Assembly (NCBI RefSeq): GCF_029873635.1
Contig: NC_080427.1
Span: 74,617,348 to 74,681,347, forward strand
DNA length: 64,000 nucleotides
Source: Malania oleifera
Lineage: Eukaryota; Streptophyta; Magnoliopsida; Santalales; Ximeniaceae
Direction of reading: 5' to 3'
Under the pieces are notes generated by a model. It had not been told where the DNA came from. It ran no database searches and worked only from the letters and a program-made list of their open reading frames with translations. The stretch's first letter is position 1. Each line of letters begins with the position of its first letter. The position numbers were made by a program, and so were the translations under genes. Of this stretch, positions 9,894 to 63,071 are shown one piece after another.

Positions 9894-9917
9894 TAATGGT
9901 GTAGTCCTAAAGCATAC

Positions 9918-11695: not shown

Positions 11696-11737
11696 TTGAT
11701 CTTTTTATAGTTTCTTGTTAGAAATTACTATAACTAG

Positions 11738-11749
11738 GCTCTCATACCA
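11738..11749 (-). other. Cop1 primer binding site
   Basis: TGGTATGAGAGC in element sense, one base away from the usual TGGTATCAGAGC, two bases inside the LTR. Confidence 0.8.
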
Positions 11750-11751
11750 AT

Positions 11752-13689: not shown

Positions 13690-13711
13690 TCTGAGAATAC
13701 CCAAATAATCT

Positions 13712-14574
13712 TGTTGGCCTGGTAGTACGTCTAAAGGGGAGGTGAATAGACTTTCTTCCGTGATGTGCTCACTTTCTACGAACATAGAAATCTTACCAAG
13801 AGCAAGTGCATAAAATTGTCGTGTAAAAGGAAATGTGGAAAATCACGATAATAATATAAATGAGATAAGAGAGAAGAAAAGCTTAACGCATTGATATTTA
13901 CATGGTTCGACACCCTGCCTACGTCCACGCCTTGAGACCAACTCAAGGATTCCTAAAATCCCCTAAAATCCTCCTTCGGGTGGAGAAGCCAATACACACT
14001 AGCTCACAAAGAGCTTCAACAAGGTGCTCACTTAGAGACACCCAAAAATAGCTCACAAAGAGCCTTTGTTTACAAAAGGTAGATGAAAATTAAATGTAAG
14101 CTTGAATACTCCCTTTGATCTCATTAAACCAATAAAACTCTTACTCAATATCCTCTTGTCAATAGAATAAATGCAATGCTAAGAGCAACAAGAAGAGGGC
14201 AGGTGAGTTTGTAAGCAAACCCTAGAAATAACAACACCAATGAATGATCTTCTTACAATATAATTTTCTAGGTAAGAAGTAAATGCTATTTACTCCTATT
14301 TATACACTAAATGGGCGAGTGCAATGCTAGAGAGCCATTGGGCATTTATGAAGGTAAGACAAAATTCCAAAATAGTCGTTGGCAGCATTTAATGTTCGCT
14401 GCTGCCCAACGTTCGTCGATGAAGGCCTATGTTCATCGACGAGCTCTTCAGTAACTTCGTCGACGAAGCACTGTGTTCATCGATGAGTTGCTGGTTCAGA
14501 ATTTAGGTACCTCTCGGTATATTTTCGTCGACGAGAACCTGAATTTAGGTACCTTTAACTATTTGGTCTTAAAA
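13712..14574 (-). repeat. Cop2 3' LTR, U3-deleted
   Basis: 863 bp against 1417 bp in the right LTR. Starts TGTTGGCCTGG; the outer end is TTAAAA where the other LTR has TTAACA. The match breaks in the repeat array after gagaacctg and resumes at acctttaactattt, so most array units and the promoter-distal U3 are lost. TATA box at 14297-14304 (minus sense). Confidence 0.92.
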
Positions 14575-14980: not shown

Positions 14981-15017
14981 CCATAATCAAAATTGGGGAG
15001 ATAGCGGAGATAGCATG

Positions 15018-16187: not shown

Positions 16188-16393
16188 GGAGGGATGGAGA
16201 GAAATGCACGACCGAGAGGGAAGAGCTAGGGGCTTGAGGGAGGAGTCAATCGAGGGAGGAGCAGCTGGTAGTGTGTGGGAGGAGACAACTGAGGGTGGAG
16301 GTGGTGGAGGGAGGTGGTGGGAAGTGGTGGCGCAAGGTGGGCAAAAGAACAGCACAGAGTCGAGAGAGGGAGATGTGCGAGAAGAGGGCTAGG

Positions 16394-16566
16394 GTTTGTT
16401 TTGTTTTATCTTGGCAGAAATAAGTACCCCGACAAATTTCATCGACGAGAACCCTGTGTTCATCGATGAAACATAGAATTTTTGGGCGACGAATCCCCTG
16501 TATTCGTCGATGAATTTTGCATATTTCTCGGCAATGAAGACCCTGTGTTCGTCGACGAGAACCTGG
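16394..16566 (-). promoter_or_regulatory. Promoter-like block upstream of the Cop2 extra gene
   Basis: At 16430-16566 there are about five copies of the Cop2 LTR palindrome (ttcatcgacgagaaccctg, gttcgtcgacgag and variants). In element sense they are followed by an A-rich run (AAGATAAAACAAAAC, 16396-16412), a telo-box-like AAACCCTAG (16389-16397) and a CT-rich leader down to the ATG at 16187. The array lies between the pol stop and the extra gene. That it drives a separate transcript is inferred. Confidence 0.5.
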
Positions 16567-16624
16567 AGAAAGGAAATAAATATTAAAGTGGAAAAGTAGG
16601 GAAAGTAAGAGTGGGGGTAGGATC

Positions 16625-19600
16625 CTATAGTATGTCTGAAGGAGTGCACATTCCTAGGGCATGCCGAAGTTTGTGAAATCTTTTTTCATTGAGAGGCTTA
16701 GTTAGAATGTCGGCAAGTTGGTTTTCGGTGGGAACATAAACCAACTCAACGTCTCCTTTTTGGACATGGTCTCGAATGAAGTGGTGCCTAATTTCAATGT
16801 GCTTGGTTCTAGAGTGGAGACACGGATTTTTTGATATGTTGATGGTGCTAGTATTGTCACAATGAATTGGAATACCTTTAACAAAGATTCGAAAATCCTT
16901 AAGTTGTTGTTTCATGTATAATGCTTGAGCACAGCAGCTGCCGGTTGCTATGTACTCAGCCTCGGTGGTGGAAAGAGCTACGAAGGTTTGTTTCTTGCAA
17001 AACCAAGATACAAGGGAGTGTCCATGGAAGTGACATGTTCCACTAGTGCTTTTTCTATCGGTCTTACAACCACCGTAGTCAGCATCAGAGTAGCATGTGA
17101 GGTTCAAGGGAGCATTTTTAGGAAAGAAGAGTCCTAAGTCAGGAGTGCTTGCTAAGTATCTGAAGATTCGTTTGACCGCATGAAGATGAGATACTTTAGG
17201 ACAAGCTTGAAATCTAGCACATAGACAAATACTAAACATTATGTCAGGCCTACTGGAGGTGAGATATAATAAGCTACCTATCATGCCACGGTAGAGTTTT
17301 TGGTCAATGTTTTTCCCTCTTTCATCAACGTCAAGCTTTGTTGTGATACTTGTAGGAGTTGCCTTAGATTTTCCCATTTCAAGGTAAAATTTCTTTAACA
17401 TGTCTTTAACGTATTTGGCCTTATTTATGAAGATTCCATGCTTCAGTTGCTTGATTTGTAATCCTAGGAAAAAGGTTAGCTCACTCATCATGCTCATCTC
17501 AAATGTTTCCTGCATAGTTTGAGCAAAGTCTTGACATAAGGTCTCATTTGTGACCCTGAAGATAATATCATCCATATAGATTTGTATAACTAGCATATCA
17601 TTCTCTTTATGTTTTAAGAAAAGAGTGGTATCGAATTTTCCTCTTGTGAACCCATTTTCAAGAAGAAATTTGCTTAAGCGTTCATACCAAGCTCTTGGTG
17701 CTTGCTTAAGTCTGTAAAGGGCTTTTGAGAGTTTACATACATGATCGGGATGAGTGTGGCTCTCAAAGCCAGGAGGTTGTTTGACAAAAACTTCTTCATT
17801 TATGTATCCATTTAAAAAGGCGCTTTTAACATCCATTTGAAACAATTTGAAGTTTTTGTAACAAGTAAAGGCAAGGAGCATTCTGATGGCCTCTAGTCTA
17901 GCTACAGGAGCATAAGTTTCATCGTAGTCAATAACCTCTCGTTGGTTGTATTGGGCTACAAGTCTAGCTTTATTTCTGACAATATTTTCATCTTCATCTT
18001 TCTTATTCCTAAATACCCATTTAGTGCCAATTATTGTGGTATTTTTGGGTTTAGGAACTAAGTGTCATACTTTGTTTCTTTCGAATTGATCTAATTCTTC
18101 TTGCATGGCATTTATCCAATCTGCATCACTTTCAACTTCTTCAAAGTTTTTAGGTTCTAGGTGAGATACAAAGGCAATATGATTACATCCACTTCTAAGG
18201 TGAGATCGGGTGCTGACACCTTGAGAGGGACTTCCTATGATGAGATCAGTTGGATGATTTTTTACAAACTTCCATGCTTTGGGTAATTCATGATCTTCTT
18301 TCTCTTCTGGTTGGTTAGGTTCTTGAGGAGAAGATCCTAGATGATCTATATTTGTATCTTGACAATTTATGTCTTGATCATTATTTATCATGAGTTGTTC
18401 TAATTCTCTTTCAATTCTAAAGGTAGTGACTTGGCTTTCTTCATTTATCTCAACAGGGGTTTTGGATGTGTGAGGATTTGTTTCATCAAAAACAACATGA
18501 GTTGATTCTTGAACAGTTTGAATTCTTTTGTTGAATACCCTGTATGCTTTACTATTCATGGCATATCCTACGAAGATCCCCTCATCTGACTTTGAATCAA
18601 ATTTAGGTAAATGATCTCTATCGTTTAATATGAAGCACTTGCATCCAAAAACCTTAAAATGTGATATGTTAGGTTTTCTACCCTTCCATATTTCATATGG
18701 GGTTTTTCCTATTTTGGATCTAAGGATGACTCGGTTACTAACATAGCATGTTGTGCTAACGGCTTCTGCCCAGAAGTATTTTGGCAAATTATGTTCGTTG
18801 AGCATTGTTCTAGCCATTTCTTGGAGTGTTCGATTTTTTCTTTCAACTACTCCGTTTTATTGTGGGGTTTTTGGTGCAAAGAAGTTGTGTGAATATCCAT
18901 TTTCATTGCAAAAGTCCTCAAGTTCTTTATTTATAAACTCTCTTCCTTTATCGCTTCTAATATGTATAATTGACAATCCCTTCTCATTTTGGATTTTTCC
19001 ACAAAAATGAATAAATGCATTACATGTATCACTTTTATTGGCAAGAAAAATTACCCATGAAAATCTAGAATAGTCATCAACAATAACAAATGCATACAGT
19101 TTTCCACTAATGCTAGCTATGTCATTTGGTCCAAATAAATCAAGATGGATTAACTCTAGGGGTCTTGATGTAGAGATTACTTTCTTAGTTTTGAAGGAGG
19201 TCTTAACTTGTTTTCCATATTGACAAGCATCACATATTTTGTCTTTCACATAATTTTCTTTTGGTAGACCGTTTACTAGATCCTTGGATGAAAGATTATG
19301 AAGAAGATCCATGCTTGCATGACCTAGTCTCCTATGCCATAACCAACAATTTTCGTTTGTGACAGCTAAGCATTTAATGTTACAATTTGTGATTTCTTCA
19401 AATTCAATTGTATATATGTTGGACTCACGTTTTCTTATGAGAATGGTATTTCCATTTAAATCATTTATTAAGCATTTTGTGGATTGGAAAATAATGTTCA
19501 ACCCTTTATCGCATAGTTGACTAAAACTTAGCAGATTATGTTTGAGAGTATCAACTAGAGCAACATTTTCAATAGCTAGGGATGAATTACTTATTTTACC

Positions 19601-19765
19601 TTTACTGATGATTCTTCCTTTGGCGTTATCTCCAAATGTGACTAGCCCTTCCTTTTTGTAAGCAAGAGAGAGGAATTTGCTTGCGTCTCCCATCATGTGC
19701 CTTGAGCATCCACTGTCTAGAAACCATTTGTTATTTACGAAGTTGCTCTTCAAGCATATATGCAC
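16625..19765 (-). pseudogene. Cop2 pol: protease end, integrase, RT, RNase H
   Basis: One frame through three open stretches (19765-18857, 18817-18065, 17881-16625). Motifs: DSGCSRHMMGD (pre-integrase/protease), HRRLGHASMD, CDACQYGKQ, HLDLFGP, VDDYSRFSW, IRSDKGREF (integrase); then KAYRVFNK; RT with [10 protein letters not shown] and the active site YMDDIIFR, where relatives and Cop1 have YVDDIIFG; RNase H with CYSDADYGGC, DRKSTSGT, STTEAEYIA, KHIEIRHHFIR and QLADILTKPL. Two nonsense codons (near 18855, Gln position in TPQQNG; near 18063, Trp position) stop the polyprotein. Otherwise it looks intact. Confidence 0.92.
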
Positions 19766-19826
19766 ACAACATCAAGTGATTTTTTTTGGTATCCATATTT
19801 TATTGGGTCCTATTAGGTTAGTGTTC

Positions 19827-21503
19827 TTAATTACTCATTTGTAGTTCATATTTTTTTCCTCTATTTCCCCTGAAGGGACATGTAAATCGTACATGCCCTT
19901 TTTTCTCACAATATAAACAGACTTTATTTGCGTATGAGGGATTCACTTTAGGTGCAAAGCTTTTCTTTGATACAGAACTCCTTTTAGCATAGAGGTTTGC
20001 AAATCCTATTGACTCGGAAGATGATAGGTCGTATCCTAAACCTTCTTTGAAAATTCCAAATCTTTGGGCTCCAAGTAATCTATCGAAATCTTCTTTTCCA
20101 CTTGTAAATTTATATATAGTATTGTTTTGATCCTCCACTTTCTTTTTCAATGAAGAGTTTTCTTGAAGAAATTCACTTACTTGACTTTTCAAGCTTTCGA
20201 TTTCTTTTTGAGAGGACTCTTTGTATTTAGGAATTCTTTAGAAAGCTTTTCTTTTTCAATATTAGAAGATGCATTTTCAGCTTTCAAGGTATCACACGAG
20301 CAAATCTATTTTTGTTTGCATTTTGAACAATTTTCTTCTAAAAGTTTGATTTTCCTTTTAGATGCTCTTAGTTCAACATAAAGTTTTCTACAGTTTTCTT
20401 CTAATTCCTCATATGAAGGGAGATATTCGTCATCAGAACTTACCTCAATTAGTTCATCCACCATAAGATAGAAATGGGCGACTTCTTCTTCGACTTCTTC
20501 ATCGGTTGAGGTTCCATCTAGTTCATCCCATTCAGTTGCATTCATTGCTTTGAATCTCTTCTTGTCTCCTTGTTGATTGTTTCTTTTGTTTTTGAAAAGA
20601 GGGCAATCAGCCATGCGGTGCCCAATCTTTTTGCAATTGTAGCATCTGATGCTCAATTCTCCTTTCTCCTTTAGTTTGCCATTTCGTTTGTTTATCAGAA
20701 AGTTTCTAAATCTTCTAGTTAGTAGGGCAACTTCGTCATCATCATCAATCTCCTTTTCTTCTATGATCTCTTTCTGCTTCCCGGCTTTCAGAGCAATTTC
20801 GGTTGCTTTCTTAGGTGCTTCAGTTTCAGCAACAGCATTTTTCTTCTTGATTTCGTAGGTCATGAGAGATCCAATTAGTTCATCAAGTGTGACCTTTGAG
20901 AGGTCCTTTGCTTCCTCAATCGCTGTGGACTTTGCGTGCCAAGATGTTGGTAGAGAATGAAGAATCTTCTGCACATTATCTTCCATAGAGTACTCTCTAC
21001 CAAGAGCTTTTAGTACATTAGTGATGTGTGTGAATCATGTGAACATAGCTGTAATTGTTTCACTTTCTTCCATTTTGAACATTTCATATTCTTTTACAAG
21101 CATATAAATTTTAGATCTCTTTACCTGGGTAGTTCCCTCATATGTTACCTGAAGTTTTTCAAACATTTCCTTGGCCGTGTTGCAACCACATATCTGGTTG
21201 TATTCTTCATCACTTATGGCGCAATATAGGAAATTCTTGGTTTTAAAGTTAAGCTGTGCCAGCCTTGCATCTGCCTCGGGAAGTTTCCCAATGGGTATGT
21301 CATCGCCGTCTTCATTTTTGAAGGTGTAGTCTTCTTCAGTGATGACATTCGATCATGGATGCCTACCACGTGACTAAATCTGTTAATCCCACATACAGTA
21401 GTCATAGGCCTGGATGAAGATGGACATTCGATCCTTCCATGCTGGGTAGTTAATCCCACAAAACTTGGGAGGGCGGTCCACAGATTGACCTTGGGCAAAC
21501 ATA
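19827..21503 (-). pseudogene. Cop2 gag (frameshifted)
   Basis: Starts with ADMFAQGQSVDRPPKFCG near 21503, shortly after the primer site. Stops break the region to 20987; then 20986-20306 is open with a UBN2-type end, KTIGHR-type knuckle CYNCKKIGHRMADC and a coiled coil; a frame change leads to 20192-19827 with a second knuckle CLYCEKKGHVRFTC. Gag would form the particle; this copy cannot. Confidence 0.85.
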
Positions 21504-21530
21504 TCTGCCACGTTGATCTTTTCTCCTGGT

Positions 21531-21542
21531 GCTCTAATACCA
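21531..21542 (-). other. Cop2 primer binding site
   Basis: TGGTATTAGAGC in element sense, one transition from TGGTATCAGAGC, two bases inside the LTR at 21545. Confidence 0.85.
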
Positions 21543-21544
21543 CT

Positions 21545-22961
21545 TGTTGGCCTAGTAGTATGTCTAGAGGGGGGGTGAATAGACTTTCTTCTGTGATGTG
21601 CTCGCTTTCTACAAACACAGAATTCTTACCAAAAGCAAGTGCATAAAATTGTCGTGTAAAAGGAAATGTAGAAAATCACGATAATAATATAAATGAGATA
21701 AGAGAGAAGAAAAGCTTAACACATTGATATTTATGTGGTTCGGCACCCCGCCTACATCCACGCCTTGAGACCAACTCAAGGATTCCCAAACTCTACTAAA
21801 ATCCTCCTTCGGACGGAGAAGCCCAATACACACCAACTCACAAAGAGCTTCAACAAGGTGCACACTTAGAGACACCCAAAAGCAGCTTACAAAGAGCCTT
21901 TGTTTAGAAAAGGTGGATGAAAATTAAATGTAAGCTTGAATACTCCCTTTGAGCTAATTAAACTCTTACTCAATATCCTCTTGTCAATAGAATAAATGCA
22001 ATGCTAAGAGCAGCAAGAAGAGGGCAGGTGAGTTTGTGAGCAAACCCTAGAAATAACAACACCAATGAATGATCTTCTTACAATATAATTTTCTAGGTAA
22101 AAAGTAAATGTTATTTACTCCTATTTATACACTAACTGGGCGAGTGCAACGCTGGAGAGCCGTTGGGCATTTATGAAGGTAAGACAAAATTTCAAAATAG
22201 CCGTTTGCAGCATTTAATGTTCCCTGCTGCCCAACGTTCGTCGATGAAGCCCTGTGTTTGTCGACGAGCTCTTCAGTAACTTCGTCAACGAAGCACTGTG
22301 TTCATCGACGAGTTGCTGAATTTGAATTCAGGTACCTCTCGGTATATTTTCGTCGACGAGAACCTGTGTTCGTCAATGAGTCCTCCATGTCCTTCGTCGA
22401 CGACACCCTGTGTTCGTCGACGAGTTGTGGCTCTGAATTTAGATGCCCCTCGGTATCTTTTTGTCAACGAGAACCCTGTGTTCGTCGATGAAGTTTGTGC
22501 TACACTCGTCGATGAAGCCCTATGTTTGTCAACGAGATCCTTTTTCTTAAAATTTTTGTCCTTTAAGTTTCTAAGAAGGTTCTTGTCCGTTTGGGGGTTT
22601 CTTTATACACTTTTAAATGACTTTACTAGTATTTTGTTGTGTGTGTGTGATACACCCCTTTCTTGCTCTTAGTATTGAGTTTCACTCTATGTACAAGATA
22701 TTTTCAAGATGGTATCTCTCTTATTTACACGCTCATTTTTTTAGATGACTTTGTACATTTGTTGTATCGTTCATGGATGCTTTGAGAGACTTGTGCTTCT
22801 GGTCATGGCACGAGTTGCTTTGACTATTTGTTGGTTCAGATGCCATTCTGTATACCTGAAACATGTCTTAGAGAGACGTTAGTGACCTTAAGAGCAGCTA
22901 ATGGGTCGTTAACATTAAAACATAGTAGGAATGAAAGACCTTTAACTATTTGGTGTTAACA
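21545..22961 (-). repeat. Cop2 5' LTR, complete
   Basis: 1417 bp, TGTTGGCC...TTAACA, followed by the target duplication AATCT. Contains the Copia block gcctacatccacgcct (21750-21765), TATA box (22122-22129, minus sense) and the palindrome array at 22230-22540. Confidence 0.93.
22230..22540 (-). repeat. TCGTCGACGA palindrome array in Cop2 5' LTR
   Basis: About twelve units such as gttcgtcgatgaag, cttcgtcgacgac, tttgtcaacgag, spaced some 20-35 bp and often joined by ccctgtg. Lies upstream of the TATA box in element sense. Short open frames here are translations of the repeat. Confidence 0.88.
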
Positions 22962-23166: not shown

Positions 23167-23479
23167 GCATGCAATCCTCGCAGAAAATGTGATTTTTGGC
23201 CTTATATAGAGTGCTTGTCCACGTGGCTCGTCAACAAGTCACGTCATCTCGTCGACGAAGGCAAGAAGGGATTTTGTCGAGAAACTCGTTACCCTCGTCC
23301 ATGAATTTTAGGCCTTGAAATCAACCCTCTCAGTAAGTTCTCGTCAACGAGCCCAATAAGCTTGTCCATCGACGAATGCTCTACGCTCATCAAAGAGACC
23401 CTGGTGAGTACTCTTTTTGAAATTCCCTTTTTCTACTTCCTTTTATTATTTAATTGGTATAATTCTTCGAGTCTCTACA
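22962..23479 (-). repeat. GypL: right part of an older Gypsy LTR, split by Cop1 and Cop2
   Basis: Resembles the right 40% of the GypD LTR in the same order: ggatggtgcccaag, LTR leader with a (GA)n run (23131-23161), TATA region (ttatatag, 23205-23212), a small array of the TCGTCGACGA motif, and the end gagtctctaca (23479). The 22 bp at 13690-13711 (between Cop1 and Cop2) read on into 22962, as the preceding piece of this LTR. The rest lies beyond Cop1, outside the window. Confidence 0.75.
23131..23161. repeat. (GA)n microsatellite in GypL leader
   Basis: Fifteen or so GA units, left of the TATA region in the same place as the GA/CT tracts of GypD, GypF, GypG and GypI. Confidence 0.9.
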
Positions 23480-27726: not shown

Positions 27727-29838
27727 TGTGACGACCTGACTATTTTTTTCTTTCCATAATACCATTTAGTATAATTATCCTATTATCCTGTTCAACTATC
27801 AAAACATAATCAACCTGAACCCATGGGTACCAAGGAATATACCTGAAATATAACTCTGATACCTAAGTAGTAGGAAACGTAATTTAAAAACATGTCATCC
27901 AACCAACCAGAATACCAGACTTCTACTAAATCTGTGATATATACAATCATCCATCCAAAAAACCAAAAAGTAACCAAGGGCCACTTCCCAAAAATAAATC
28001 TAACGCTAACTCAACAACTCACCCTTCTGACAAGGTAGTTCGGCTGGTCACTACTGTCGCGGAGCGATATCTGCTCCTTTACTTGGATTTCCTGAAATGT
28101 TAAATGTTGGGGTGAGACACCTCTCAGTAAGGGAAATAAATTAACATCAGTGTGTGGCGTTATGAGCATTTTCGTGTTATTCATATAAACAGTATAATGA
28201 ACATATTTGGTAAAATCTGTCTGTAACAGAACCAAGTAAAACATGATTTGTCATATCATCATAAAGCATACTAGATTTATATACATGAAAATCATCTTAT
28301 AACTGTATAATACTGAAATAACACTTAGGATGGATAGTTAGCTGATGTTATGTCTTACCCTCACATGACTAAATTGTGCAACCCAAAAATGGGACCTAGC
28401 AATGGTTGGTCGACCATGCTAGATCAAACATAAGTGTATAAATACGATGGGTCTGTCCCTCTTGGTCCTGGACTGCTAAGGGGACAACTCCACTCTATAC
28501 TGAAGCCACATCGACTGCCATCTCCGACACTACTGATCTTGTAGTAGTACTATCATAATTCTAAACATATAACTACGGTATCGTGCTCCTAAAACTGAAC
28601 TAAACCATACCATCCGGGTTCTAATATCATATAATAAGTTTCATATACTGAGCATAACTATTTCATATTTCATAGCAATAACTGACATATTAATGTTTCA
28701 TAAATCCTGTCATATCTTACATGATTATGGCATCTGCGCCAACATGAATCATGACATCTCAGACGGCATAACATATCATGTAAATCACGGCATCTGCATA
28801 GGCATATCATAACATACTGAATCATGAAATCTTTGTACTGTTTAACATACTATTTAGAACATAGTTCTTGTATTGTTTTATGGTTTTTCCTAAAAACTGG
28901 TAATACATGATTATTCTGGGAAAACATAATATTTCATTAACATAATTTCCATGATAAAGATTACTCATGCCATACAAAAAGGGTAATATTCAAAACATAA
29001 AATCTGTTCTAAAATCATATTTCTGATATTATTCATGAAAATCATATTTCTAATCAATAACAGTATTCCCAAACATAATTCTACAATATACATATTTACC
29101 TGAAATTAAATGCTGTAAAATAATATATTTTCATAAGAAGGCTGACTTAGTTTATCCCCTTACCTAGCTTATTGAAAAAATCACAAATTAACCTATCCTG
29201 CGCCCGTGGTGTTCCCAGCTCAACACCCTGAAATTTATATTTTTCCCAACAAAACTTTAGTATAAACTCATCTAATTCATTTTCTCAGCCTAAAAATACC
29301 AAATACCTTAATAAATATTAAAATAATCAACTTACCAAATTTTGGGATGGTTCCCAAGTTAGCCTAACCAACCAATCACTCCAGTAGATTTGTAGAGAAT
29401 CTTCCCAGGAGTAACGTGACGACTTCAGATCGTCGATCCGGCGAAGAACCAAGCCAAAAAGCTAGAGAGAAGGTGAGAAGGGTGACGTTAAAGAGAGAGA
29501 GAGAAGGAATTTTCATGCCATTTTTTTCGCTTCAAATCCAGGTTTAGCATATTTATAAAGTGCATACTCGTCGACGAGTCACGTCGTCTCATCGACAAGC
29601 GCAAGAAGGAGATTCGTTGACGAGCACTTACTCCTCGTCGATGAATTTCAGGCCCGAAAACACCTCTCTCGGTAATCCCTCGTTGACAAGACACATGTCC
29701 CTGTTGACGTTCCCCAGAAGGCTCCTCGTCGACGAACAACCTGACCTTGTTGACGAGGCCTACTAAACACCTTTAGAAAACTTATTTTCTCCCCTCTCTT
29801 TTAATACGTAATTCATTAAAATTCTTTAAGTCTCTACA
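27727..29838 (-). repeat. GypD 3' LTR
   Basis: TGTGACGACC...TCTCTACA, 2112 bp. Contains degenerate gcatctgcgccaacatgaatcat repeats (about 28730-28830), a short GA leader tract (29492-29505), TATA box (29550-29557, minus sense) and the palindrome array. The purine tract in element sense follows at 29839-29855. Confidence 0.92.
29566..29760 (-). repeat. TCGTCGACGA palindrome array in GypD 3' LTR
   Basis: About eight units (ctcgtcgacgag, ctcatcgacaag, ttcgttgacgag, ctcgtcgatgaa and others) directly upstream of the TATA box in element sense. The 5' LTR has the same array at 59866-60060. Confidence 0.88.
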
Positions 29839-31057: not shown

Positions 31058-31125
31058 TGTAAGAATCTGACCTGAGTAACATGGACTAAATAATTAAGAA
31101 AAGGGCAAAAAGGTAATTTGAGTAG

Positions 31126-31325
31126 GCTTCGTCGATGAAGCCATTGTTCTCGTCGACGAAGGTGCTCGTACTGTTCGACGAAGAAATTCATAGGTTCGTC
31201 AACGAAGAGATACTGAGAGATTATGGAAAATTATGAATCTCAGGTTTGTCGACAAAGCCACTACGGCGTCGATGAACTCCCTTCTTTAGCTCATCGACGA
31301 AGGCGTTGTTTCATCGATGAGGTTG
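31126..31325 (+). repeat. TCGTCGACGA palindrome array in GypF 5' LTR
   Basis: Eight units, for example ggcttcgtcgatgaagcc, tctcgtcgacgaagg, ggttcgtcaacgaag, ggtttgtcgacaaagcc, tttcatcgatgagg. Ends about 20 bp before the TATA box. The 3' LTR copy is at 37985-38162. Confidence 0.9.
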
Positions 31326-31341
31326 GCTGGGTCAAAGGGGC

Positions 31342-31389
31342 TATAAATATCCTCCTTCATTGCTTAGTTTCTAAGAAAGCTGAATTCTC

Positions 31390-31447
<58 letters not shown>
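31342..31447 (+). promoter_or_regulatory. GypF LTR core promoter and CT-rich leader
   Basis: TATAAATA followed after about 45 bp by a (CT)n run of more than 50 bp, then attctctcttcgattc. The same layout is at 38181-38293 in the 3' LTR. Plant start sites are often followed by CT tracts; the exact start is not shown. Confidence 0.7.
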
Positions 31448-31449
<2 letters not shown>

Positions 31450-32925
31450 AACCAACGAAATCTCTCATTCTCTCTTCGATTCTTCGCTATTCGTCGCTTG
31501 ATTCAACGATTTGACGTTACTGCATGGATCAGGGGAGGAATCTCTTCGAGAATAGTGAATCGGATCTTCGTTTCGAGGATTTTCAGGTTTTGACCAAAAA
31601 CCGAGGTAAGGGTCCAATTTCATTTTCGCTTTGGTAAATATGTAGTAGTAAGAATTATAATGAAGTATAGTACTTTGATATTTAGGTTTTGGGAACTCAG
31701 TTCATAGTTTTGGAGCCATAGAGTTCGTGTTTTGGTATTTGGGCTAAGGTAAGGGGATTCTGTTTATATCAATTATTTTTGAAATTGAAATCGATAAACA
31801 TGTAGTTTATGATTGTATGTATGTTTTGACTACTTATTTGGGAAAATCTGTCGAGTGAAAATATGGGATTTTCGAGTTATAGTTTTGGGGAAAATTTGGG
31901 GGTTTCGGGTATCATCTCTATTTTTGTTGGAAAAATCGTATGTTGTATAAAACTGTAGTATTAAGATGATTGTACCTGTATTTGGTATTAAATTGTATTC
32001 TTGAATTGAAAACAATATAATTTGTTGTATAAATAAGTGTGGAATGAACTGTTGTATGTAAAATGTTCTAGGTTTTGTAAAACAGCTGTGACGGCTAATT
32101 ATCGTAAGCTGATGGGTATAGGAACATGAGTTCCAAAATTGTTCTAGGCTTTATGAAATTTGCCACGTCTCGGCTAATTACCGTGGGCAAACACCATGTC
32201 TCGGCTAAATATCGTGGACGAGAGTGTCCAGCTCTATATCTGAGGGTGTGAAATATCACATGTTTGTTCCGGCTGGTCACTTATGGGTGTGAGTGGACAC
32301 CGTATTAGCAACGATATCGTTGTGAGGCTTCGGTTATTGCAAGGTATCAAGTGCTTGAGTGTGACGACACTGATCGTATGTTTGGCATCGTATGTACTAG
32401 AATTGGATTGTGAAAATACTGGAACTGTATTGTGTTATGTTTTATGTTGAAATAATACTTGTATGTCACACACTGATATAATCTGCTTTCTTCCTTACTG
32501 AGAGGTGTCTTACCCTGAATGTACAAATGTTTTTCAGGTCCTTCAAGTACCCGAAACTAGCATCCTAGCATTCAGGAGTGTAGGTGTTGATTAGATATGT
32601 ATAGTACTTAAGTAAGTACTGATTTTGTAACCGGGTTGTCATTGTTGGGTTTTGTAGACACCCAGGGTATGTACTATATTTGGGAGCGTAGACTCTAGTC
32701 ATGTATAAACTTTGGTATGGTACACTATATATATTAGAAAGAATATTTCTGCTGCGCATTTGAGGTGTATATATGTGTATGTGAATTTGTATAGGGTTTA
32801 CGTGTACCCCACGGGGTCGGACCCTTATTCAGTGTAGTATCATGTATGTTTCAATTAAAATAGAGACAAGCTAGGTTACTAAATTCACACTTGGGGCCTA
32901 TCTGCGAGTTCGGGGCGTGACAGCT

Positions 32926-32937
32926 TGGTATCAGAGC
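32926..32937 (+). other. GypF primer binding site
   Basis: tggtatcagagc, perfect initiator-Met tRNA match, three bases after the 5' LTR. Confidence 0.93.
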
Positions 32938-33249
32938 TAACCAAGTTGTTAGGTCATGTAGACTTGGTTAGGCGTAGTTATGTGTATATATCAAAGTATA
33001 GGATGTAGGAAATGGGTAGAGTAGGTCGAGGGTTGTCTTGTGGCTAGATAGGGACTCATTGGCAGTGTTTTGTGTTTTTTATAGAATGACGATTTTAGTA
33101 AAATCACAACAAACTATTGATGGTTTCGTGTCGGTGTCGTAGGGCAGACCTGGACTTGTAAGAGTTATAGTTAACATGATTAGCTTTTAATGATTGTGTT
33201 AACTGTGTATGATATAGGAATTCTAACTGATTCCTATCCTATTTTTAGA

Positions 33250-34260
33250 ATGGAGCCCAAGGATAACAACTTGGAAAGTGGTTCCGAGGGGATTGCGAGT
33301 GATGGATCTCCTTCTGTGCCTCAGGGATTGACGAGGCATGTCATGCGAGAGATCAGGTGGAGTATTAGGAGAAGTGAGCATTCTCCCACTACTATGGGTT
33401 ATACCATAGAGAGGTTCACCCGCATGCACCCTCCGACGTTTACGAGCGAACTTGATCCAATAGTAGAGGAGAACTAGGTGTAGAAGACTGAGAAGATATT
33501 GGAAGTTCTGCACTGCACCGACCAGCAGAAGATTCTCTATTCTACTTTTCAGCTAGCAGGAGAAGCTGACAAATGGTGGACTGTTGTGAGTCTACTTGAG
33601 AAGCAGAGAGCTAGTCCATCTAGTATGACTTGGATCTGCTTCAAGGAGGTCTTCTTCGAGAGATACTTCTCGACTTGCACTCGTGATGTGAAGGTTGATG
33701 AATTCTCGAGCTTAACTCAAGGAATCGTAACGATGTAGAGATATGCTACCACATATATCGAGATATCTTGTTTCGCGCCATGTTTGGTCTCAAACGAGTA
33801 TGAGAAGACTTCGAGGTTCGAGAAGGGTCTGAGGAAGGACATCCGCAGGCTTGTGGGAATGCTACAGATCTGAGAGTTTTCTATCCTGGTGGATAAAGCC
33901 ATCATAGTTGAGGCTGACCTCCAGGGGGATAAGGTGGTACAGGAATAGAAGAATAAGCTAGTATCTTCTGGTTCTTAGACTAGTCCTCGACAAGGAAAGG
34001 GGAAGAAGAAGAAGAATTATGGTTCAGATTATCGTCATAATACTAAATGGTAGGGTCCTCAAGGGGATCCATCTTCTGTGCAATGCACCAAGTTCCGTAA
34101 ATGGCATGATGGTGAATGCTAGCCGTTCTGGGGTAACTACTACAATTGTGGCAAACCGAGCCACATATCCCGAAACTATCAAGGACAGAGGAGTGATATG
34201 CCTGCACCGAGCCAGAACCGTGGAAGTAATCAGATGCCTCAAGAAAACTATTAGGCAAAC
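33250..34260 (+). pseudogene. GypF gag (many stops)
   Basis: Starts MEPKDNNLESGSE, matching GypG gag ([13 protein letters not shown]). Then [36 protein letters not shown] and FKEVFFERYF, the capsid core of Ty3-type Gag. A damaged zinc knuckle (YNCGKPSHISRNC-like, 34141-34180) follows. TAG stops at about 33476, 33482 and 33736 break it. Confidence 0.88.
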
Positions 34261-34289
34261 ACGACTCTAGTGAGGGTGTATTCTCTTAT

Positions 34290-36075
34290 TATAGTAGATG
34301 CGGAACATATGGGAAACGTGGTGATAGGTACCATGTTATTGCTTTTGCGAATAAAGTTGTTATCTATTTGATTTGGGAGCAACTCATTCTTTTATATCTA
34401 CAAGATTTGTGAAACTGTGTGGGAGAAACCCAAGTGATGAATGAGTGGTTTTCTATGGCTACACCGACTAGGAGTGTAACGATCTGTAGTAAGATGTTAG
34501 GAAACTGCCCAGTGGTTATTCAGGGAAGGCTACTACCAGGGAACCTGTAGTGTATGACATGTGTGGATTTGATGTCATATTGGGGATGGATTGGTTATTC
34601 TCTAGTTATACGGTGATTGATTGTAATAGGAAGGTAGTAGTGTTCAAACCTCTTATGGAGCAGGAATATGATTTCTTAGGATCGTGTGTGCGTTCGACAC
34701 CACAAATTCTGTTAGCTATGCAAGAGAGAAGGTTACTTTTGGATGGGTGTCAAGGGTACCTAGCTTGTGTGAAGGAACCACCACGGGATGATCTGAAACT
34801 TGAAGATATCTGAGTGGTTAACGAATTTTCAGATGTATTCCCGAAATACTTACCTGGTTTACCTCATGATCGTGAGGTGGAGTTCGCTATAGAGTAGCTA
34901 CCAGGCAGGGCGCCGATTTCTAAAGCTCCATACTGGATGGCTCCAACGAAACTTAAGGAGTTAAAGAAGTAGTTACAGGAACTACTGGATAAGGGTTTTA
35001 TCAGACCTAGTGTTTCGCCCTGGAGAGCTCTAGTATTGTTTGTGAAGAAAAAGGATAGGTCAATGAGGATGTGCATTGATTATCGTGAGATTAACAAGGT
35101 AACAATGAAGAACCGATACTTGTTGCCTCGTATAGATGATCTATTTGACTAGCTATAGGGAATGCAAGTCTTTTCGAAGATCGACATATGGTCAGGGTAT
35201 TATTAGGTGAAAGTTAGTACTGAGGATGTTACGAAAACTGCTTTCCGAACTAGATACGGTCACTACGAGTTTCTGGTCATGCCTTTTGGGTTAACTAACG
35301 GCCCGACAGTATTTATGGACCTAATGAACAAGGTTTTCCATTAATACCTGGATCAGTTTGTAGTGGTGTTCATCGATGCTATTTTGGTATATTCTAAGAG
35401 TTCAGAAGAGCACAAAAATCATCTGAGGTTGGTACTTCAGGTACTACAAGAAAAGAAGTTGTATGCTAAGCTGAAGAAATGTGGGTTCTGGCCGAATCAA
35501 GTCGTGTTTCTAGGCTATGTTATGTCGAAGGGTGGTATCTCAGTTAATCCTGGTAAGATAGAAGCAGTGATTGATTAGGTGAAACCGAAGAGTGTACAAG
35601 ATGTTCAGAGTTTCCTAGGACTGGCTGAATAATACTGGCGGTTCGTAGAGGGATTCTCTAAGTTATCTAGCCCTCTTACATGGTTGATGAGGAAGGGTGT
35701 GAGATTTAATTTGAGTAATGAGTGCGAGCAGAGTTTCCAAGAGTTGAAACATCGATTGGTCACTGCTCCGATTTTAACCATCCCATCTGGGGACGGTGGT
35801 TTTGTGATTTACAGCGATGCATTGCTGAAGGGGTTGGGATGTGTGCTAATGCAACAGGGGTAAGTAATTGCTTATGCTTCTCAGTAACTTAAGGAGTACA
35901 AGAAGAATTACCCCATGCATGATCTAGAATTAGTGGTAGTAGTATATGCATTGAAGATTTGGAGACACTACTTATATAGTGAACAGGACTACGATCAAGG
36001 ACTACGATTGAACCATTAGCTATCACTCGGGGAAGGCTAATGTGGTAGCCAATGCGTTGAGTTGGAAGTCAGAGC
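34290..36075 (+). pseudogene. GypF protease, RT and RNase H (many stops)
   Basis: Protease: LGANHSFI region near 34375 and DMCGFDVILGMDWLFSSY (34550-34620). [23 protein letters not shown] (near 35040-35100), the fingers LFD*L*G with two TAG codons at 35150 and 35156, and the catalytic [10 protein letters not shown] (35363-35400), where GypG has FIDDILVYS, so one catalytic Asp is changed to Ala. RNase H follows with IYSDA and [19 protein letters not shown]; its centre is shortened at about 35985. Confidence 0.88.
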
Positions 36076-36079
36076 ATGC

Positions 36080-37620
36080 AACAGTATCTATAGTTATAGG
36101 TTAGCATCATATTAGACGAGATCTAGAAAGCCTTGGCATGGAGTTGGTGGATGATAATCATTAGGTTTTCATTGCTAGCTTGGTGATCCAGTCGACGTTA
36201 CTTGAGAGGATTAAAGTCGCGCAAGCTCGTGATGTGGAGTTAGTTGAGACCATAGAGAAAGTGCAGCAAGGGTTGGCTACAAATTTTAACATCTCCAAGG
36301 GAGGTGTGTTGAGGTTTGGGACCAGTCTGTGTGTCCCAAATGGTGAGGGTATAAAAAGGACGATCTTGGAAGAGGCACATCGTTCTTTGTATGCAGTACA
36401 TCTAGGTAGTACGAAGATGTATCGGGATTTGCGTGAATCTTTCTAGTGGAGTGGCATGAAAAGGGAGCTTGCTCTGTTTGTGAAGCAATGTTTGACGTGT
36501 CAACAGATAAAGGTAGAATATTATAGGTCAACAGGGCCGTTGCAACCATCGAGTATTCTAGAGTAGAAATAGGAGAATATTTCTATGGACTTCATCACCG
36601 GATTGCCACTAGTAGTTCATGGGCAGAATGCAATCTAGGTAATCATGGACAAGTTGACTAAATCTGCTCACTTTATACTGATGAAGGTTAACTACTCTTC
36701 GGATAGGCTAGCAGATTTGTACGTGCAGAAGATAGTTAGAATGCACGGAGTGTCAGTATCCATTGTTTCATATCAAGACCCAAGGTTCACTTCTCGATTC
36801 TGGAAGAGCTTGCAAGAAGCACTGGGGATGAAGTTTACATTCAGTACAGTGTTCCACCCCCAGACTGATGGACAGTCAGAGAGGATGATACAGATCTTGG
36901 AGGATATGTTACGGGCTTATGTATTAAACTTTGGTGGTAGTTGGACTTAGTTTCTACCGTTAGTGGAGTTCACCTATAACAATAGCTTCTAGGCTAGTAT
37001 CGGGATGGCACCGTTCGAGGCATTATATGATCGGAGGTGTCAGTCTCCTCTGTACTAGGATGAGGTTGATGAACGGCAAATATTGGGTCCCGAACTCGTA
37101 CAACAGGCTTCTGAAAAGGTCGGTTTGATCAAGGATAGGATTAAACCGACTTAGAGTCGGAAAAAGAGTTAAGCGAATGTTCGCTACTGTGAGTTGGAAT
37201 TTGAGGTGGGAGGTAAGGTATTTCTAAGGATTACTCTGATGAAAGGAGTGATGAGGTTCAGGAAGAAGGGCAAACTGAGCCCGAGGTATATCGAACCATT
37301 CGAGATACTGGAACGAGTGGGTCCGGTGGCCTACAAGATTGCATTAGCCCCAACGCTCTCAAGGATCCACAATATGTTTCACATATCCATGTTGAGGAGG
37401 TACGTTTCGGATCCGTCGCATGTGATTAGTTACGAATCCTTAGAGATTGGGGATGCTTTGGTGTATGAAGAGATACCTGTTCAGATTCTGGACAGTAAAG
37501 TTTAGAAGTTGCGTACCAAGGAGATACTGTTAGTGAAGGTATTGTGGCAGAATCACACGGTTGAGGAAGCTTCTTAGGAGTTAGAGATGGAAATACGCCG
37601 AAAATATCCATAGTTGTTCT
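36080..37620 (+). pseudogene. GypF integrase (many stops)
   Basis: Zinc-finger region (GSTKMYRDLRESF, CLTCQQIK), core (MDKLTKSAHFILMKVNY, DPRFTSRFWKSLQEALG, FHPQTDGQSERMIQILEDML) and C-terminal part (GGKVFLRITLMKGVMRFRKKGKLSPRYIEPFEILERVG, listed by motifs GGKVFLR and KLSPRYI; FHISMLRRYV). TAG replaces Trp or Gln of the relatives at about 36445, 36566, 36572, 36634, 36948, 36991, 37058, 37153, 37503 and 37576. Confidence 0.9.
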
Positions 37621-37916: not shown

Positions 37917-38224
37917 TGTAAGAACCCGACCTGAGTAACATGGACTAAATAATTAAGAAAAGGGAAAAAAGGTAATTTGAACAGGTTCTCGTCGACGAAG
38001 ACCCTTGTACTGTTCGATGATGAAATTCAAAGGTTCGTCGATGAAGAGATACCGAGAGATTCTGGAAAATTCTAAATCTCCCATTCATCGACGAAGCCAC
38101 CACAGCGTCAATGAACTCCCTTCTTTGACTCATCGGCGAAGGCACTATTTCGTCGACGAGGTTGGTCAGGTCAAAGGGGCTATAAATATCCTCCTTCATT
38201 GCTTGATTGCTAAGAAAGTTAAAT

Positions 38225-38297
<73 letters not shown>

Positions 38298-39747
38298 ACG
38301 GAATCTCTCCTTCTCTCTTCAATTATTCACTATTCATCGCTTGATTCAACGATCTGACGTTACTGCATGGATCAGGGGAGGAATCTCTTGGAGAATAATG
38401 GATCGTATCTTCGTTTCGAGGATTTTCAGGTTTTGACTAAAAACCGAGGTAATGTCCGATTTCATTTTCGTTTCAGTAAATTTGTAGTAGTAAGAATTAT
38501 AGTGAAGTATGGTACTTTGATGTTTAGGTTTTGGGAACTCAGTTCGTAGTTTGGGAGCCGTAGAGTTCATGTTTTGGTATTCGGGTTAAGGTAAGGGGAT
38601 TTTGTTTATATCAATTATTTTTGAAATCGGAATTGGTAAACATGTAGTTTACGATTGTATGTATGTTTTGACTACTTATTTGGAAAAATCTATCAAGTGA
38701 AAATACGGGATTTTTGGGTTACAATTTTGGAAAAAATTTGGGGGTTTCAAGTATCATCACTATTTTTGTTGGAAAAATCATATCATCGCGATGACCGTAC
38801 CTGTATTTGGTATTAAACTGTATTCTCAAATTGAAAATTATATAATTTTTTATATACTCAAAGTGTGGAATGAACTATTGTATGTAAAATGTTCCAGGTT
38901 TTGTAAAACAGCTATGACGGCTAATTATCATAAGCTGATGGGTATAGAAACATGAGTTCCAAAATTGTTCCAGGTTTTGTGAAATTTGCCACTTCTCGGC
39001 TAATTATCGTGGGCAAACATCATGTCTCAGCTAAATACCGTGGGTGAGAGTGTCCGACTCTATATCTGAAGGTGTGAAATATTGCCTGTTTGTTCCGGCT
39101 GGTCACCGATGGGTGTGAGTGGACACCGTATTAGCAACAATATTGCTGTGAGACTTCGGTTATTGTAGGATATCGGGTGCTTGAGTGTGACGAAACTGAT
39201 CATATGTTTGGTATCATATGTATTGGAACTGGATTGTGAAAATACTGGAATTGTATTGTGTTTTGTTTTATTTCGAAATAACACTTGTATGCCACACACT
39301 GATATAACCTACTTTCTTCTTACTGAGAGGTGTCTTACCCCGAATATACAAATGTTTTTCAGGTCCTTTGAGTAGCCAAAACTAGCATCCTAGTGTTCGA
39401 GAGCGTGGGTATCGGTTAGCTAAGTATAGTACTTAAGTAAGTACTGATTTTGTAACCAAATTGTCATTGTTGGGTTTTGTAGACACCTAGGGTATGTATT
39501 GTATTTTGGAGCATAGACTGTAGTCATGTATAGACTCTGGTATGGTAAGTTTTATATATTAGAAAGAATATTTTCGCTGCATATTTAAGGTGTATGTATG
39601 TGTATGTGAATGTGTATAAGGTTTACGTGTACCCGATGGGGTCGGACCCTCATCCAGTGTAGTATCATGTATGTTTTCATTGATATAGGGACAGGTTAGG
39701 TTACTAAATTCACACCTGGGGCCCATCTGCAGGTTTGAGGCGTGACA
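37917..39747 (+). repeat. GypF 3' LTR
   Basis: 1831 bp, tgtaagaacccgacc...ggcgtgaca, followed by the target duplication. Same array, TATA (38181-38188) and CT tract (38228-38293) as the 5' LTR. Differences from the 5' LTR are frequent, so the insertion is not recent. Confidence 0.95.
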
Positions 39748-41559: not shown

Positions 41560-41755
41560 TCGTAGACGAAATGGTGTTCTCGTCGATGAATCTTTCACTA
41601 ACTTCATCGACGAATCAGTGGCCTCGTCGATGAATCTGGGATCTCCGATTTTTCGAGACCCCTCGGCTTCTCCTCGTCGATGAGTCTCTAAATTTCGTCG
41701 ACGAGAAGCATAAAGGCTTCGTCGACAAAATCTGGCTTCGTCAACGAAATATGCC
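41560..41755 (-). repeat. TCGTCGACGA palindrome array in GypG 3' LTR
   Basis: Eight units (ttcgtagacgaa, ctcgtcgatgaa, ttcatcgacgaa, ttcgtcgacgag, ttcgtcaacgaa and others), upstream of the TATA box at 41531-41538 in element sense. Confidence 0.9.
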
Positions 41756-59383: not shown

Positions 59384-60138
59384 CATATTTACCTAAAATT
59401 AAATGTTGTAAAATAATAAATATATTTTCATAAGAAGGCTGACTTAGTTTATCCCCTTACTTGGCTTAATGAAAAACTTACAAATTAACCTATCCTACAT
59501 CTGTGGTGTTCCCAGCTTAACACCTTGAAATTTATATTTCTCCCAACAAAATTTCAGTATAAACTCATCTAATACCTTTCCTCAGCCTAAAAATACCAAA
59601 TACCTTAATAAATATTAAAATAATCAATTTATCTAAATTTTGGGATGGTTCCCAAGTTAGCCTAACCAACAAATCACTCCAGTAGATTTGTGGAGAATCT
59701 TCCTAGGAGTAATGTGGCGGCTTCAGATCATTGATTTGGTGAAGAATCGAGCCAAAAATCTAGAGAGAAGGTGAGGAGAGCAGAATTAGAGAGAGAGAAG
59801 CAATTTGCATGCCTTTTTTTTTTTTTTCACTTCAAATTCGAGTTTAGCATATTTATAAAGTGCAGACTCATCAACAAGCCACATCATCTCATCAACGAGC
59901 GCAAGAAGGAGGTTCATCGACGAGCACTTACTCCTCGTCGACGAATTTCAGGCTCGAAAACACCTTTCTCGATAATCCCTCATCAACGAGACACGTGTCC
60001 TTGTCGATGTTCCTTAGAAGGCTCCTCGTCGACGAACGACCTAGCCTCGTTGACGAGGCCTGCTGAACACCTTTAGAAAACTTATTTTCTCCCCTCTCTT
60101 TTAATACGTAATTCGGTAAAATTCTTCGAGTCTCTATA

Positions 60139-61280: not shown

Positions 61281-61659
61281 CATTGTGTTGATTTTTTTCT
61301 GTGATTGAACTGAGTTTAAGGCTATTTATACGACAAGATTCATCAACGATCCACGTCACCTCATCGACGAGTCCTGTAGAAAGTTCGTCAATGAATCTGC
61401 ACCCTCGTCGAAAAATTTTAGACTTCCCAAAAATCCTCTCTTGGTATCATCTGGTCGATGAGACGGAACCTCGTCAACGAGATCCTTAAGAACCCTCGTC
61501 GACGAAATCCCTGTGTTCGTCGACGAGTGCTTGGAAAATTTCTTGGGTTATTATATCCAAAATGCAATGTCGTCGACGAAGTCTACTGCCTCCTTCTATT
61601 TCTGTTTCCATTTTCCTCCCTATTTATTATTTAAATATCATTATTCTTTGGGTCGTTAC
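60470..61659 (-). repeat. GypI: Gypsy-type LTR, inner end unclear
   Basis: Ends GGGTCGTTACA on the plus strand (TGTAACGACCC in element sense). Same layout as GypD and GypG LTRs: GA leader tract (61249-61277), TATA box (61323-61330, minus sense), palindrome array (61340-61600). No pol found. The left boundary at about 60470 is a guess. Confidence 0.65.
61340..61600 (-). repeat. TCGTCGACGA palindrome array in GypI
   Basis: About nine units (ctcatcgacgag, ttcgtcaatgaa, ctcgtcaacgag, ctcgtcgacgaa, ttcgtcgacgag and others) upstream of the TATA box in element sense. Confidence 0.88.
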
Positions 61660-63071
61660 AATAAGTCTGTAAGTACGATGGGCCTACTCCTCCTGGTCCC
61701 ACACTGCTAGGGGGACAACTCCACTTTACATTAAAGCCACATCGATTGCCATCTCCCACACTACTGATCGTGTGGTAGCACTATCATAATTTTGAACATA
61801 TAGCTACAATACCATGCTCTTGAAACTGAACTAAACCATACCACTATGGTTCTGATATCATATAATAAGTTTCATATACTAAGCATAACTATTTCATATT
61901 CCATAGCAATAACTGACATATTAATGTTTCATAAATCCTGTCATATCTTACATGATTATGGCATCTGCGCCAACATGAATCACAGCATTTGAGCTGGCAT
62001 AACATATCATGTAAATTACGGCATCCTCGCACGACATATCATAACATACTGAATCATGAAATCTCTATACTATTTAACATATTATTTAGAACATAGTTCC
62101 TGTATTGTTTTATGGTTTTTCTTGAAAACTAATAATACATGATCATTATGGGAAAACATAATTTCCATGATAAATGTTACTCATGCCACATAGAAAGGGT
62201 AATATTCATAACATAAAATCTATTCTAAAATCATATTTCTGATATTACTCATGAAAATCATATTTATGATCAACAATAGAATTCCCAAATATAATTCTAC
62301 AATATACATATTTACTTGAAATTAAATGTTGTAAAATAATAAATATATTTTCATAAGAAGGCTAGCTTAGTTTATCCCCTTACCTGACTTACTAAAAAAC
62401 TCACAAATTAGCCTATCATGCACTCGTGGTGACTTATTGAAAAACTCACAAATTAGCCTATTATGCACTCGTGGTGTTCCCAACTCAACACCCTGAAATT
62501 TACATTTCTCCCAACAAAACTTCAGTATAAACTCATCTAATACCTTTTCTCAGCCTAAAAATACTAAATACCTTAATAAATATTAAAATAATCAACTTAC
62601 CTAAATTTTGGGATGGTTCCCAAGTTAGGAGAATCTTCCCAGGAGTAATATGGCGGCTTCGGATCGTCGATCTGGTGAAGAACCGAGCCAAAAAGCTAGA
62701 GTGAAGGTGAGGAGGGCGAAGTTAGAGAGAGAGAGAAAGAATTTGCATGTCATTTTTTTTGCTTCAAATCCGGGTTTGGCATATTTATAAAGTGTAGACT
62801 CGTCAACGAGCCACGCTATCTCATTGACGAGTACAAGAAGGAGGTTCGTCGACGAGCACTTACTCCTTGTCATCTTATTTCAGGCTCGGAAACACCTCTC
62901 TTGGTAATCCCTCGTCGACGAGACGCATATCCCTGTCGACATTCCCTAAAAGGCCCCTCGTCAATGAACGACCTAGCCTCGTTGACAAGGCCTGCTGAAC
63001 ACCTTTAGAAAACTTATTTTCTCCCTTCTCTTTTCATACGCAATTCGGTAAAATTCTTCGAGTCTCTACAG
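61660..63071 (-). repeat. Second, partial copy of the GypD LTR
   Basis: Matches the GypD LTR from about position 28428 to its end (TCTCTACA at 63071), with TATA box 62782-62789. The inner 700 bp are missing; GypI abuts directly. It has its own changes: a 45-bp tandem duplication (62386-62475) and a ~33-bp loss near 62628. Confidence 0.85.

Follow-up and report, generated by a model that had tools for sequence, protein, structure and literature searches.

A palindrome array common to Copia and Gypsy long terminal repeats in Malania oleifera

In 64,000 nucleotides of Malania oleifera DNA (assembly GCF_029873635.1, contig NC_080427.1, positions 74,617,348 to 74,681,347; here ‘the window’), long terminal repeats (LTRs) of both Copia and Gypsy retrotransposons carry arrays of one palindrome, TCGTCGACGA, upstream of the TATA box. 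The arrays are probably a U3 module that was passed between Sirevirus-type Copia elements, represented by Cop2, and related Gypsy elements, that holds a conserved site for a host factor and that has been amplified in both. What the DNA itself establishes is the location of the arrays, their architecture, the homology of spacers between Cop2 and the Gypsy LTRs of type I, the lack of a match outside the array, and the conservation of the non-CpG positions of the unit. The chances are about even that a U3 enhancer module crossed the Copia–Gypsy boundary and that one host regulator now governs many Gypsy elements together with at least one Copia family of some size, as a common ‘regulon’ with some 10^5 exact sites.

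The usual view is that the control region of an LTR evolves within its own lineage of elements. Exchange of modules between superfamilies would mean that an answer to activation or silencing by the host can travel laterally from one genomic parasite to another, and that the sites competing for a single host regulator can number around 10^5. Because the palindrome is short and strongly conserved, the factor should be directly findable by one-hybrid screening or DNA affinity purification sequencing (DAP-seq). Clusters of palindromes are already known from Sireviruses, as the available text of PMC2829016 bears out, and were mentioned in a note made from the letters of the window (the sequence-only reading). 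For a palindrome array common to Copia and Gypsy LTRs, no description was found in searches of the open-licence PMC literature, which lacks most subscription papers.

Position and plan of the arrays

Two elements of the window have arrays in both LTRs, upstream of the TATA box:

21545..22961, minus strand: 5' LTR of Cop2 (Sirevirus-type Copia), with a target-site duplication, AATCT, that follows 22961 and precedes 13712
22238..22535, minus strand: 12-unit array in the U3 of the Cop2 5' LTR, in three quartets with 37-38 nt linkers
22122..22129, minus strand: TATA-like box TATAAATA of the Cop2 5' LTR, 108 bp downstream of the array
22336..22359, minus strand: composite of unit, N5 and TACCGAGAG, common to Copia and Gypsy arrays
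31058..32922, plus strand: GypF 5' LTR, with the duplication AGTTG preceding 31058 and following 39747
31129..31320, plus strand: array of the GypF 5' LTR, TATA box 21 bp downstream
37917..39747, plus strand: GypF 3' LTR
37989..38159, plus strand: array of the GypF 3' LTR, TATA box 21 bp downstream

Cop2 (13712-22961, minus strand, AATCT at both ends) has the gag-integrase (INT)-reverse transcriptase (RT) order and the RVT_2 domain of Copia; GypF (31058-39747, AGTTG at both ends) has the order gag-protease (PR)/RT-RNaseH-INT. The sequence-only reading had named arrays of 8-12 units at six places in the window. All six are present, and with up to two mismatches of any kind allowed the unit number holds for four (Cop2 12, GypF 8, GypG 8, GypI 9) but is too high for GypL (5) and GypD (7). 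Under a stricter rule of at most one mismatch, or at most three if all are C>T or G>A, the same spans hold 12 (Cop2), 3 (GypL), 7 (GypD), 6 (GypF), 8 (GypG) and 7 (GypI). The window has 51 places within one mismatch of TCGTCGACGA and eleven arrays of at least three units, since five more, starting at 14413, 16439, 37989, 59868 and 62800, add to those six.

The position claimed for the arrays, upstream of the TATA box, is confirmed at all six places, where a TATA-like box lies on the expected side (108 bp off in Cop2 and 9-21 bp in the five Gypsy LTRs), and extends to a wider set. When arrays were oriented by the TACCGAGAG linker alone, independently of the TATA box, TATAWA was found downstream within 130 bp in 22 of 25 and within 60 bp in 20, against 6 and 1 on the opposite side. 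The 25 are drawn from 28 arrays, the linkers of L005 3451-3610, L014 6953-7141 and window 16439-16558 scoring more than three mismatches. The exceptions to alignment with LTR families are likewise few (2 of 28): the array at 16439-16558, which lies inside Cop2, and L005 57-225, which is near a Copia RT, has spacers that look type D-like by eye and was left unassigned to a class.

Read towards the TATA box, the plan is unit-S-unit-M-unit-S-unit, a long linker, and the same quartet again, where S is a spacer of 9-11 nt, M one of 14-15 nt and the linker mostly 34-41 nt. The module thus has two quartets (three in Cop2, where they form a higher-order duplication with a 112 bp period), a spacing of about 20/24/20 bp and a size of about 190-300 bp. 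Inter-unit distances are mostly 19-21, 24-25, 44-51 or 65-71 bp in Copia and Gypsy alike, with exceptions at 29, 38, 40, 53-55, 86 and 92 bp. Units have been lost from many arrays; the number detected varies from 3 to 12, and GypG shows all eight. The long linker starts with N5-TACCGAGAG, placing TACCGAGAG five bases past a unit. With up to two mismatches in each part, this pairing occurs 22 times at offset 5 in 264 kb, and none of 15 other offsets has more than two cases; the exact form occurs 4,197 times genome-wide (2,156 + 2,041) and the reversed pattern not at all. In several arrays of Gypsy types I and D, TGACGTGG or a sequence close to it stands in the last spacer before the TATA box. 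It resembles an ACGT box for bZIP factors; no such sequence was seen in the Cop2 spacers.

Spacer homology between Cop2 and Gypsy arrays

The sequence around the units had been said to differ between the superfamilies. This holds outside the array, but within it the spacers are partly common to Copia and Gypsy. Beyond the array, the Cop2 LTR matches its own 3' LTR, L004, L013, L016 and two unclassified places, L008 and window 57609-57689; none of the matches is an array-bearing Gypsy LTR. The Cop2/Gypsy similarity therefore ends at the array, and vertical inheritance from before the Copia–Gypsy split was set aside on the same ground.

The homology is clearest between Cop2 and Gypsy type I. With the units removed and 300 letter shuffles as the null, the Cop2 and type I spacers gave z scores of 11.1 (short), 4.1 (medium) and 5.9 (long), and the direct strand scored above the reverse complement in all three classes; L004, L005 57-225, L005 3451-3610 and L012 2071-2265 were left out as unclassified. 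A second control kept units and spacing and shuffled the spacers 200 times. The Cop2 array aligned to the type I LTRs L007 and L026 at 115 and 108 bits, against a mean of 48.9 and a maximum of 68.3 for the shuffled controls, and for 10 of 13 Gypsy sequences no shuffle reached the observed score. (The Gypsy class of L007 and L026 follows from alignment of their LTRs to that of L012, where gag and RVT_1 lie downstream.) Cop2 and type I also have short spacers with ACACAGGG in common, and the TACCGAGAG linker at an identical offset. A common motif without homology was set aside on the results of the two tests.

Shared descent of the module in Cop2 and Gypsy type I is thus well supported by the spacer letters. 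The sequence-only reading had offered two explanations, a host factor common to the elements and array transfer. Transfer gains support because spacer homology is not predicted by a common factor alone; the host factor is suggested by the conservation of the units. That reading had also named array homology from one recombination event only as an outcome that would tell against it. This is partly borne out, in that the Cop2 and type I arrays share descent, as opposed to separate recruitment.

Conservation of the unit and the competing explanations

Conservation was tallied over 190 units (up to two mismatches) in 27 arrays, leaving out four that had yet to be classified (L004, L005 57-225, L005 3451-3610 and L012 2071-2265) and L003, a duplicate. 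Every C and G of the unit belongs to a CpG. On the sense strand, C>T (89) and G>A (80; P = 0.54) together account for 169 of the 192 changes. The four non-CpG positions show 7 changes over 760 sites. Conservation reaches one base beyond the palindrome on either side, the base before the unit being Y in 131 of 133 cases and the base after it R in 129 of 133, while the next base out is free; these flanking bases played no part in finding the units. Changes at G3 and C8 (42 and 39) are about twice as many as those at C2 and G9 (19 and 20), which may reflect a neutral context effect of ACG versus TCG or a binding preference.

Such 12-bp dyads, conserved, regularly spaced and beside a TATA box, look like a cluster of binding sites for a dimer, and a putative palindrome-binding factor is the best account of the unit conservation. 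Each unit, in its extended form YTCGTCGACGAR, would be a binding site in double-stranded DNA, probably for a symmetric dimer, and binding of the predicted factor would set when array-bearing LTRs are transcribed. The GTCGAC core may be linked to AP2/ERF factors of the DREB/CBF kind; searches of the open-licence PMC literature yielded nothing usable on this. The module would have crossed between Copia and Gypsy once or a few times, by template switching between packaged RNAs or by gene conversion after nested insertion, and would then have spread by retrotransposition. Template switching during reverse transcription is a mechanism that passes sequence between LTR elements in the complexes described from Triticeae (PMC1950507), although the cases in the available text are Angela-like (Copia) and U3 exchange between superfamilies is not among them. 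A Gypsy-to-Copia direction is favoured by the dominance of Gypsy arrays in the sample described below and by the different repeat of Cop1, a second Copia element in the window. Pointing the other way, Sireviruses are known for such arrays, and the available text of PMC4029996 says that the Del LTRs of eudicots lack a 5' CpG island.

Several points weigh against a transferred and conserved module. Sireviruses are the usual owners of such arrays, so that either superfamily may have been the donor. On the Copia side the evidence comes from Cop2, the one family with pol, and from L004, a related LTR, and 17 arrays found in an unselected sample (20 systematically placed 10 kb regions, 200 kb in all, at round coordinates on the 13 large contigs) comprise, by LTR alignment, 16 Gypsy-type, one unclassified and no Copia. 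The spacers of the other Gypsy types are less like those of Cop2. For F/G, z was -0.4 (short), 2.9 (medium) and 7.4 (long), so that the short class is at the null, and homology is clear for the long linker only, since the reverse complement beats the direct strand in the short (3.21 versus 2.00) and medium (4.33 versus 3.67) classes. For D, the short and medium classes are at the null (0.7 and -1.1) and only the long class (3.3) stands out. In the spacer-shuffle control, shuffles equalled or exceeded the observed score for L006 (37 of 200), L011 (5 of 200) and L014 (1 of 200). The last points qualify the evidence on constraint, which in itself speaks for the module. Across 12 pairs of related LTRs, differences affect 12 of 680 T/A positions and 241 of 1019 CpG positions in the units, against 627 of 2756 non-CpG positions in spacers and 2162 of 12283 in flanks, a comparison that overstates T/A constraint because units found in one copy were read in the other, which suppresses changes on the first branch; after a rough correction that halves the flank rate, the constraint is still about fivefold. 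One of the pairs, the 5' and 3' LTRs of GypF (1/36), records change after insertion only.

Among the alternatives, separate recruitment of a TCGTCGACGA-binding host factor by Copia and by Gypsy, with the spacing rules of the factor imposing the same lattice, is unlikely overall. Such sites have been arrayed more than once, since CGGTCGACCG, with the same GTCGAC core, forms arrays with another spacing in other elements of the genome, and the null results for two of the three D spacer classes fit as well. However, the Cop2 and type I spacers match in letters beyond units and lattice, including the ACACAGGG short spacers and the TACCGAGAG offset, and for these two convergence is largely refuted.

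It is rather improbable that the sites recruit a host repressor or the methylation machinery and not an activator. The arrays are CpG-dense (observed/expected 1.47 in the Cop2 array versus 0.46 in the TATA-to-U5 part of the same LTR), but selection on the element would be expected to remove a purely silencing site and not to keep it arrayed across families. Neutral growth of a tandem repeat in a fast-evolving part of U3, carried without function, would accommodate the variation in array length, the 112 bp duplication in Cop2 and the predominance of CpG transitions, as in decaying methylated DNA. It is improbable in view of non-CpG positions and adjoining bases that are far more conserved than the spacers, and of an array position that is fixed relative to the TATA box. 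Very doubtful is a function in RNA, in which self-complementary units would pair in the U3 of genomic RNA for dimerisation, packaging or stability: by inspection, stems of 10 bp could arise between neighbouring units that are 10 nt apart, but C>T and G>A are equally common on the sense strand where pairing would tolerate C>U better, a symmetry that makes the role less likely and is a weak test because most changes are probably post-insertion.

Abundance of the palindrome and the elements that carry it

Genome-wide counts show the repeat to be more widespread than the sequence-only reading had it. In the assembly (1,494,336,490 bases in 510 contigs), exact TCGTCGACGA occurs 132,361 times, against 1,383 for the reversed word, a control that contains no CpG, and the pair TCGTCGACGA-N10-TCGTCGACGA is found at 5,275 places, with none for its reversed control. 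In the unselected sample, TCGTCGACGA is the commonest palindromic 10-mer once AT repeats are set aside, with 29 exact units; among palindromic 10-mers with at least three CpG (n = 58) the runner-up is CGGTCGACCG with 7 copies. Units with at most one mismatch number 84 there, against 1, 4, 0, 0 and 1 in five first-order Markov resamplings, which rules out an origin by chance. Provided the sample ratio of 84:29 holds, about 3.8 x 10^5 such units may be extrapolated for the genome. The 17 sample arrays are spread over 11 of the 20 regions, nine having none. The sequence-only reading had named equal clustering in non-LTR DNA as the outcome that would tell against it, and the opposite was found: 83 of the 84 units have another (up to two mismatches) within 100 bp and one is isolated, and 26 of the 28 arrays align to LTR families.

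The remaining features of the array-bearing elements in the window are:

13712..14541, minus strand: part of the Cop2 3' LTR aligned to the 5' LTR, most of U3 missing
14413..14534, minus strand: leftover array of the Cop2 3' LTR, 5 units
16439..16558, minus strand: four-unit extra array in the interior of Cop2, flanked by the end of pol and by two further open reading frames (ORFs)
16625..21034, minus strand: coding pieces of Cop2, arranged as in Copia (gag 20306-21034, INT 18857-19771, SH3 18065-18856, RT 16625-18064)
33247..37574, plus strand: coding pieces of GypF, arranged as in Gypsy (gag, PR-RT, RNaseH, INT)
41560..41747, minus strand: 8-unit array of the GypG 3' LTR (LTR start 41817)
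29568..29756, minus strand: array of the GypD LTR, beside an INT C-terminal piece (30154-30666)
59868..60056, minus strand: array of a GypD-related LTR
62800..62988, minus strand: array of a GypD-related LTR
61340..61579, minus strand: array of the GypI LTR (LTR start 61660), TATA box 9 bp downstream
23228..23350, minus strand: decayed array of the GypL LTR, TATA box 19 bp downstream

In addition to its Copia gene order, Cop2 has several features of Sireviruses. Copies of the polypurine tract CTCCCCCTT lie beside the 3' LTR (plus strand, at 14577, 14631, 14674 and 14970), and the junction of the 5' LTR with the primer-binding site, CA/AGTGG-TATTAGAGC, differs from the Sirevirus CA/ATTGG-TATCAGAGC at two of 16 positions. 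The Sirevirus integrase signal, a poly-C about 21 bp inside the LTR end, is matched by eye by seven G at 21569-21575 (plus strand; LTR end 21545). By its position upstream of the TATA box, the Cop2 array agrees with the clusters of a palindromic repeated motif (RM) of Sireviruses (PMC2829016). The available text of that paper calls these clusters Sirevirus-specific and absent from classic Copia elements, a restriction that does not hold here, the same array with partly common spacers being present in Gypsy LTRs; it also gives published RMs, except that of Tnd-1, a CGG-CCG signature that TCGTCGACGA lacks. The array at 16439-16558 stands where Sirevirus RM copies precede env and may be an internal promoter. 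Beyond it lie ORFs at 15846-16388 and 15167-15889, neither with a Pfam match at 0.001; one of the two gave a weak hit to PF20167 (E 0.053), as did 1832-2542 of Cop1 (E 4e-4), both below the cut-off of that family.

A query from the array-free U3 of Cop2 gave 659 first-look candidates genome-wide and an array-spanning query 1,623, the best 40 of each being scored. The best 40 array-spanning matches cover that query almost end to end (87-100%), which does not in itself prove an array in every copy because they were selected by that query; 21 of the best 40 array-free matches recur among them. Nine of the 40 array-spanning matches, the window's own included, are accompanied within 9 kb by a Cop2 RT on their own strand, at regular offsets: downstream at +5,161 to +5,182 bp in five, and upstream at -3,152 to -3,185 in three and -4,126 in one. 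The distances were checked for all 89 RT places against both lists of 40, and a subset of 54 of the 89 gave the same nine. A further Cop2 LTR, L025, has ten units and no pol match in the 10 kb examined. An array is also present in another Sirevirus-like LTR, L004, which aligns to Cop2 at 64% over the flank on its TATA side; pol was not found within the 3 kb examined. Tandem ACTATTAGTGACGGTTT-like repeats adjoin this LTR at L004 900-1200.

On the Gypsy side, arrays are commoner in related LTR families than in Copia. Types I, F/G and D lie beside RVT_1, RVP_2, gag (Retrotrans_gag) or SH3_Tf2-1 pieces, with the full gene order in GypF and GypG and single pieces in types I and D. For the chromodomain that follows INT in chromoviruses, one piece gave a Chromo score of 13.2 bits, below the cut-off of 25.1. 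A comparable CpG-dense, variable 5' stretch, the 5' CpG island, is described for the LTRs of Del, also a Gypsy lineage, in PMC4029996; the available text says that eudicot Del has no such island, and the stem ‘palindrom’ is absent from the main text.

Other palindromes are arrayed in this genome as well. The window, the unselected sample and three loci chosen for the motif (L001, L002 and L004) were scanned for clustered palindromic 10-mers of any kind that contain four or more G or C. Of the 28 clusters obtained, 23 are of TCGTCGACGA, three of CGGTCGACCG and one each of TCATCGATGA and CAGTCGACTG. CGGTCGACCG is the exact RM palindrome listed for a Vitis Sirevirus in Table 3 of PMC2829016; it has the GTCGAC core in common with TCGTCGACGA and differs in the outer bases, and its spacing here is mostly 32-51, 72-76 and 103-120 versus 20/24/45-50. 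Its arrays lie at 49238-49603 in the window, L016 7189-7577, L018 4887-5520 and L008 8024-8349 (two exact sites only). Related factors may read both palindromes. Gypsy type I LTRs start within a few hundred bases of CGGTCGACCG sites at L018 (about 5670) and L022 (about 3778), possibly by insertion preference or by coincidence.

Cop1 (element 1-13692), Sirevirus-like as well, has no TCGTCGACGA within one mismatch. Its LTR (452-780) carries its own repeat, TGGCAGTCGTCTGTCA, in eight copies mostly at 22/51 bp spacing, which rules out the TCGTCGACGA array as a mark of every Sirevirus in the genome. Rfam and tRNA scans of the window gave no match. Among its LTR elements lies an open, intronless host gene like BTB/At2g24240 (25725-27152, plus strand), of 475 aa from stop to stop.
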